Shown one piece after another: positions 51,592 through 53,886 of a DNA stretch of 64,000 bases (within the stretch, counting starts at the first letter, position 1; every line of letters begins with the position of its first letter). Below the pieces are notes generated by a model. The model was not told the origin of the DNA, did not search any database, and saw only the letters and a list, made by a program, of their open reading frames with translations. The stretch comes from Atopobium sp. oral taxon 810 str. F0209 (GTDB lineage Bacteria; Actinomycetota; Coriobacteriia; Coriobacteriales; Atopobiaceae). A program made the translations under genes and the position numbers. The DNA lies in the NCBI RefSeq assembly GCF_000466405.1, contig NZ_KE952934.1, positions 15,671 through 79,670 on the forward strand, given 5' to 3'.

Positions 51592-52179
51592 TTACTCTAC
51601 ATCCTCAAATTCAACCTTATAATCCTCACCAATCGCCTTGCCAACATTTTGAACGTAGCCAGTTATAAGGTCTTCTGCGCGACTCCGTGCCTGTTTTAGC
51701 ATGACTGTATCCGCTTTTGCTGCCTTCTCGAGGTCATCTTGCGCATTGCTGATTGCTTTATTTTTTTCGCTAATCGAAAGATCTGGCAAGAAAGCTATTG
51801 GCTTGTTTTCCGCAACTAGCTGAATGGTTTCCTCCTGCAAGTCGGGCCGGCCAAAAACCTGAGGTTGCGGCATTTTCACTGTAACAACCATACGTGTGCC
51901 AACTTTATGCGGATGCCCGATTTCAAGCTTATTTGCGTCGATTCCATAAGTCACAATCGCATCATATTCGAACCACGACCTCCGGTCGAGGAAAAGAACT
52001 TTTGAGGTATGACGAGCAACATTGTGCGTATATACCTTGTATGTCGCCAGTTCCGCCACTGCGCGCGCATTGGAGAAGTCAGGCTCTTTTGCCCCTTTAT
52101 TTTGCTTACAGCCACACATAGAAAAAAGGCAACCACAGAGACACAACGCCGTAAGAAAAGGAATGATTTTACGCCGCAT
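51592..52179 (-). CDS. DUF4230-like lipoprotein
   Basis: A 195-residue predicted lipoprotein. The signal peptide is Cys-rich and the most likely lipidated residue is Cys24 (SMCGC then KQN). The domain at about 45-195 contains WFEYDAIVTYGIDANKLEIG and MVVTVKMPQPQVFG, which look like the DUF4230 family pattern; a helical C-terminus follows (ISNAQDDLEKAAKADTVML). GAGGG precedes the ATG. Its start overlaps the end of the upstream membrane protein by 11 bases, so they are coupled. Function is unknown. Confidence 0.75.
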   Translation of the reverse strand: MRRKIIPFLTALCLCGCLFSMCGCKQNKGAKEPDFSNARAVAELATYKVYTHNVARHTSKVLFLDRRSWFEYDAIVTYGIDANKLEIGHPHKVGTRMVVTVKMPQPQVFGRPDLQEETIQLVAENKPIAFLPDLSISEKNKAISNAQDDLEKAAKADTVMLKQARSRAEDLITGYVQNVGKAIGEDYKVEFEDVE

Positions 52180-53183
52180 TTGTATCACCCTCACTCACGT
52201 TAGTGTTCTCTGGCTTATCTTCTGGCCATACGATTTTATAGCCCTTGGATTCCAGAAGATTCATTGAAAGCCCTTCCACAACTTTGCGCGCATTACCAGT
52301 AGCTAGACTTTTGATATCTGCTTTTTTCTTAACTTCAGAAATGGCATCCTCTTTGCATGCTGTTAGAACCGATGCCTGGTTGATGTTTTGTGCGTCACGC
52401 TCAAGACAGTCAATACGATCATCCACATTAGGATCAGATATGGTCATCTCGGGCAAAGTGGGAATAACAACCTTTGCCTTATCGTCCACAGCGTAGGTGA
52501 TATCGCCAGGGTTAAAACTAGCCTTGAACTGTGCTTTATAGTAAATGTGCAAGGGATCTTTTTTATGTCCATCACCCTTGTATATGGCAATACCTTCGTA
52601 GTTAAAATCAACCACAGCAAGTTCATTGATGGCTACTACCTTGCTAATTTGAGCAGAAGTTAAAGTTTCAGAAGGACGCGTTGAGGACCAGCCAACATAT
52701 CCTCCGATTGAAATAACGGCCGCAACCGCAAGAATTATCAGCACTCCCTTTACTCCTAGGAAGCGAAAAATACGCCCAGCTATCTTTTTTCGTTGCTTTG
52801 ATCTTTCTTCGGAAACTTTAGCCTTAGCTTTGCGTCTGGCTGTTTTGAGTTCTAATTCTGCTTTAACAGAAGCTTCCTTTGCTTTTGCCTGAACCTCTGC
52901 GAGGCGCGCCTGAGCTTCTGCTTCCGTAATGGCTGTCTGCGCCTTCGCTTTTGCAATAGCTAGCTCTGCCTCGGCTTTTGCCTTTGCAAGCTCAATCTCC
53001 TCAGCAGAAAGGTGGATGTCTGGGACCTCAATCACATCTGCATCCTTGGCTTCGCCAAGTGGATCTAATGCTTCAGAGTCGACCCCCCCCCTGACTAATT
53101 TCCAATTTATCATTTACTTCTGAGTTGGTACTCATTGATTCCTGAGGCTTCTCATACAAGGAGTCATGATCCCTTTCATCCAC
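52169..53183 (-). pseudogene. DUF4230-like coiled-coil membrane protein, out of frame at a G9 tract
   Basis: The intact protein would begin at the GTG at 53183, which has a perfect AGGAGG six bases upstream, and read VDERDHDSLYEKP...KLEISQGG, then VDSEALDPLGEAKDADV onwards. The coding strand has nine G (53083-53091) where eight would keep the frame; as written translation stops four codons later. Downstream frame: an Ala/Glu/Lys coiled coil (residues about 60-130), one membrane helix (GVLIILAVAAVISIGGYVGW) and an external domain resembling the DUF4230 protein encoded next. A weak internal ATG at 53113 could give a shorter product. It may be a slippage switch and not a dead gene. Confidence 0.8.
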
Positions 53184-53436
53184 GCCAGACCTCCTAACCT
53201 TTTCCAGTAACTTCACCCGGGCAGTGCCTTCATTATATGAAATGCAAATTACGCGAGCTGGATTAATTTGAACAAGGACAAACATAATTCTGTGGGTGGC
53301 ATTTGTATGCACAGGTATTTCTTATTGTGGGCAACTCGGGCAACTCAGCTCTCAACTTGTGCAAGTTAACGTAACCAGAAGCGCATTTTCTCTCTCCTCC
53401 CTTATGCTTTCATTACACGAAGATATGGGAGAAGAG

Positions 53437-53886
53437 ATGCTTATACAGCACATACAACAAGAGGGCCAGCGCGACATCAAGGTAGTCGTAACCAGTGCGC
53501 CATCTGACCCGCGCGCAACGAGGATTGTTGATAAGCTCAAAACACTCGATGGGAAGCTCATCGCATATGAACCTGGCACTATAACACGCCGCATGCTGCC
53601 ATATAGCGAGGTGCTATTCATTGATATCCGTGCTCATCAATGCTGGATTCACTGTACTCATGGCATCGAGTTCGAAAGTTCTCAGCGCCTTTACGAACTA
53701 GCGGAGTCACTTGCGCATACAGAATTCATTCGTATATCAAAGCAAGTTATTGTCAATTTCGACAAGGTCGTGCGTATCCGACCTGAATTCAACCACCGTC
53801 TTATGCTTGAGCTAGAAGATGGTACGCAGGTACTCGTCACACGCAGCTACGTATCCGAAATTAAACGACGACTTAGCATGCTATAG
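53437..53886 (+). CDS. LytTR-domain DNA-binding regulator
   Basis: A 149-residue regulator without a receiver domain. The N-terminal part (about 1-50) has VVVTSAPSDPRATRIVDKLK. The LytTR domain at about 55-149 has LFIDIRAHQCWIHCTHG, FIRISKQVIVNFDKVVRIRPEFNHRLMLEL (partial motifs) and LVTRSYVSEIKRRL. The ATG at 53437 is preferred because GGAGAA lies 5 bases upstream; longer in-frame starts reach into the divergent promoter region. This size and the following DUF3021 gene are the usual pair in Gram-positive bacteria, in which the membrane protein restrains the regulator. It is divergent from the DUF4230 genes. Confidence 0.85.
   Translation: MLIQHIQQEGQRDIKVVVTSAPSDPRATRIVDKLKTLDGKLIAYEPGTITRRMLPYSEVLFIDIRAHQCWIHCTHGIEFESSQRLYELAESLAHTEFIRISKQVIVNFDKVVRIRPEFNHRLMLELEDGTQVLVTRSYVSEIKRRLSML

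Follow-up and report, generated by a model that had tools for sequence, protein, structure and literature searches.

A likely slipped-strand poly-G switch at the start of a DUF4230 membrane-protein gene in Coriobacteriia

Slipped-strand switching at homopolymers is a known kind of gene control, documented in both Bifidobacterium and Gardnerella. The sortase-dependent pili of Bifidobacterium breve are switched by replication slippage at a G-tract, as shown by Maximum Depth Sequencing (PMC9187656), and Gardnerella has variable homopolymer tracts whose lengths, such as 9 and 10, vary between colonies (PMC11287997). The locus described here shares with the B. breve pili an intragenic G-tract in an actinobacterial envelope gene, the length of which decides expression there and would, we infer, decide it here; it differs in gene family and in class, and the case for it is a comparison between species. 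With Gardnerella the common feature is that runs of 8 or more are linked to surface genes, whereas the tracts lie mostly upstream of open reading frames (ORFs) in that genus and the present one, known from single genomes, is intragenic. In the paper library that we searched there was no earlier report of a homopolymer slippage switch for Coriobacteriia, Atopobiaceae, Olsenella or Atopobium, nor of such a switch for the DUF4230 gene family; its occurrence in this class and on a DUF4230 pair may be new.

Judging from sequence, we consider it likely that this is a phase-variable contingency locus, in which replication slippage controls a DUF4230 membrane protein together with its partner lipoprotein. 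Its elements, in the coordinates of the window (the whole 64-kb stretch of DNA that was analysed), are as follows.

51592..52179, minus strand: DUF4230 lipoprotein; its start overlaps the stop of the membrane-protein gene.
52169..53113, minus strand: DUF4230 membrane protein, with a long helix, a single membrane helix and the DUF4230 domain; the ORF is read through the G9 from an ATG at 53113 that lacks a Shine-Dalgarno (SD) sequence.
53073..53183, minus strand: N-terminal frame from the GTG to a stop just past the tract, the out-of-register state (from sequence and codon usage).
53083..53091, minus strand: G9 homopolymer, the proposed slippage tract (from sequence).
53190..53195, minus strand: AGGAGG, the SD sequence for the GTG start (spacing 6).
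53232..53237, minus strand: TATAAT, a possible -10 element, read by eye.

The TATAAT (53237-53232) was not among the outputs of a consensus promoter scan. Divergent from the putative switch gene, a LytTR DNA-binding protein, possibly a regulator, is encoded at 53296-53886 of the window.

In the mechanism that we propose, a G would be gained or lost at the G9 during replication, about 30 codons past the true start of the membrane protein, and such slips would go unrepaired, as searches showed no known mismatch-repair system. Each change of the tract would shift the N-terminal frame set by the SD start into or out of register with the membrane and DUF4230 body. In register, the full membrane protein would be made and translation would enter the overlapping lipoprotein start; out of register, as the sequenced molecule is, translation would end just past the G9 and both products should fall, with residual expression of the body coming perhaps from the SD-less ATG at 53113, in its own frame.

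From the GTG at 53183, about 30 codons lead to the G9 (53091-53083 on the minus strand), a long repeat in the 5' part of the coding sequence. Translation in the GTG frame gives VDERDHDSLYEKPQESMSTNSEVNDKLEISQGGGRL and ends at a stop at 53073, whereas the DUF4230 body lies in another frame; it is thus the tract length that sets the reading frame. We compared codon log-odds with those of 30-codon pieces of real window genes (median 6.1, 5th percentile about 0, off-frames about -5). The 92 nt before the G9 score +5.1 in the GTG frame and -6.0, a typical off-frame value, in the frame of the body; the 300 nt past it score +28 in the body frame. This flip between the two frames indicates that the coding frame changes at the G9. 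The initial annotation had proposed the GTG at 53183, with AGGAGG six bases upstream, as the best start, and had taken nine G to shift the frame into an early stop; both readings hold (AGGAGG at 53195-53190, stop at 53073, codon usage switching at the tract). Its view that nine G halts the gene is right for the GTG frame, which does stop, but overlooked the ATG at 53113, which lies in the body frame and opens a complete ORF of 314 aa reading through the G9, so that the OFF state is maybe incomplete. Expression may leak in the out-of-register state, or this ATG may yield a form with a shorter or other N terminus. Since this ORF is intact, a gene caller would show no break at the DUF4230 membrane gene.

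The same ORF, complete and including the G9, could be taken to mean that the gene simply begins at ATG 53113 and that the nine G belong to its normal coding sequence (Arg-Gly-Gly-Val), with no switch at all. We think that this is unlikely: there is no recognisable SD sequence before ATG 53113, ahead of the tract the GTG frame has the codon usage of coding sequence and the ATG frame does not, GGG makes up only 6.2% of the glycine codons in the long ORFs of the window, and in the two closest relatives (genomes G080 and G063) the genes begin upstream of their tracts at SD-preceded starts.

These relatives came from a profile search of 140 genomes of the family, which gave DUF4230 ortholog matches in 18; poly-G stands at the matching N-terminal place in three of the 18, and in the other 15 the places inspected have no long 5' tract. 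From species to species the tract varies both in length and in register: the ortholog in G080 (L036/L102) has a G10 that is in frame from an SD-preceded GTG, and that in G063 (L108) has an out-of-frame G9 followed by a stop 4 nt beyond the tract. Both genomes belong to one genus (g11) of the same family as the window but a different genus from it, and their proteins, 39% identical to the window protein, are the closest that we found. The two share neighbours with each other; what they have in common with the window is limited to the DUF4230 pair beside the tract. A single-protein search of the genome contigs gave no matches, and a search with an alignment as query gave relatives that are all without the tract, several of them near-identical across families. 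Closely similar DUF4230 pairs occur in an Eggerthellaceae MAG, Olegusella massiliensis, Collinsella phocaeensis and Atopobium deltae (L032, L033, L034 and L035, respectively), a similarity that looks like recent horizontal transfer. Two genes from the DUF4230 pair of G080, a 347-aa gene has an eight-base run close to its N-terminal end (L122, 8829-8836).

The presence of G-runs at the matching place in two related species, one out of frame and one in frame, makes a switch likelier than a sequencing slip. It is true that homopolymers are error-prone and that the genome is a draft assembly (1,947,547 bases in 38 contigs), so one might suppose a miscount, the true tract being fixed at an in-frame length and the gene always ON. 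Yet a corrected tract would still be long and slippery, the orthologs, assembled independently, show lengths of 9 and 10 with one out of frame and the other in frame, and several further tracts of the genus are out of frame too; we therefore give a miscount little chance. The varying register of the orthologs at the DNA level also bears on a third reading, in which transcriptional slippage or ribosomal frameshifting would draw a constant mix of products from one DNA length. Slippage of a nine-G run is conceivable during RNA synthesis or decoding, but for the closest actinobacterial precedent it was replication that was shown to slip (PMC9187656), and action at the RNA or ribosome level seems to us very improbable. 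Least credible of all is a decaying pseudogene with an ordinary frameshift that fell in a homopolymer, since, although the SD-driven frame is indeed broken in both the window copy and G063, the 314-aa body is free of stops, its codon usage is normal, the partner lipoprotein is intact, and the in-frame ortholog has a tract as well.

We return to the slippage switch and to the proteins that it would control. Both members of the pair match PF14014 (DUF4230), the membrane protein at 41.5 bits and the lipoprotein at 85 bits against a Pfam gathering cut-off of 27, and their adjacency is kept in most relatives examined; the long N-terminal helix of the window protein, in contrast, was not seen in the aligned homologs. 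The membrane protein comprises this predicted helix (residues 37-117), one membrane helix with a basic stretch ahead of it, and the domain. A structure model of it is weak outside the domain and the helix; no PDB relative was found by sequence, and a fold search in the PDB gave a best E of 0.22, which is not meaningful. The partner carries a lipoprotein-like signal in its own sequence. Its ATG (52179) is overlapped by the membrane-gene ORF, whose stop is at 52169-52171, and because of this overlap its translation is possibly coupled to that of the upstream gene, in which case lost upstream translation may lower the lipoprotein too. The initial annotation had thus been correct in describing a DUF4230-like membrane protein overlapped by a lipoprotein gene. 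It had also spoken of a tract within a surface-exposed protein, and this has to be amended: the tract itself falls in the N-terminal tail, which precedes the membrane helix and by the positive-inside rule is probably cytoplasmic, and by the same rule it is the DUF4230 domain that should face outward.

We infer, then, slippage in living cells, coupling of the lipoprotein and an outward-facing role of the pair, which would act in the envelope. Deletion of a DUF4230 gene in Streptococcus mutans left biofilm formation without a significant defect (PMC13041782). If the switch is real, it offers a first clue to the DUF4230 pair, namely a role, probably in the cell envelope, that is subject to fluctuating selection, and surveys of single genomes would misjudge the set of surface proteins open to such a strain.

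Within the window, the second-longest G/C run is 6. The whole 1.95-Mb genome has four G/C runs of at least 8, three of which reach 9 or more; for runs of that length the Markov expectation is about 0.7 to 3, depending on model order, so that the count is near expectation and not significant alone; it is the placement that stands out. Each of the three runs of 9 or more is found at the 5' end of an envelope or surface gene (a G8 at C3:360, at the end of a GC-rich contig, was excluded). One, a G9 (L004 227-1573; G000:C11:48945-48953), lies inside the signal peptide of a pilin-like protein with SpaA domain and LPXTG motif; it is in frame here and is a second candidate switch. Another, a C10 (L002 1501-1510; G000:C7:9347-9356), is 27 nt upstream of the ATG of a surface protein with Listeria-Bacteroides repeats, whose expression it could possibly tune.

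Placement is biased across genus and family as well. We compared 68 distinct G/C runs of 9 or more with 303 control runs of 5-6 from the same loci, using a simple ORF caller, with the loci taken in the order of the search listing and the discovery cases included among the 68: 17 of the 68 long runs, and 5 of the 303 controls, lie close to the 5' end of a gene whose product has a hydrophobic N-terminal stretch (Fisher p=6e-10). For loci below 55% GC the figures are 7/15 and 0/22. Where a 5' tract is intragenic and has a plausible SD start, it is out of frame in six cases (L001, L108, L022, L025, L026, L047) and in frame in two or three (L036, L004 and, weakly, L052). L022, L025 and L026 are signal-peptide genes of one congener (G001), in each of which a G/C run of 9-10 lies out of frame relative to the SD start. 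In another congener (G003, L023 1501-1509; G003:C60), a C9 sits in the 16-nt spacer of a promoter-like TTGACA/TATTTT pair upstream of a signal-peptide gene.

Mismatch-repair proteins were searched for too. The MutL domain was not found in the genome of the window, MutS_I not in six genomes and NucS not in three, while control genomes with known members of these families gave matches; this fits uncorrected slippage, without proving it. The phase switch suggested in the initial annotation gains support from these searches, from the opposite registers of the ortholog tracts and from the biased placement. We also lean, with less assurance, towards a wider view, that the locus belongs to a family-wide set of poly-G and poly-C contingency loci at the starts of envelope and surface genes, in the Coriobacteriia family to which Olegusella and Atopobium deltae belong, whose genomes, with no detectable MutS, MutL or NucS, would diversify the cell surface by slippage as in Bifidobacterium and Gardnerella. 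Many tracts in high-GC MAGs (G025, for example) are away from gene starts. Finally, poly-C runs of 12 and 22 (L063 and L064) are found just upstream of two related membrane proteins (MATGRPHRLEG and MATGHAYHLEG).
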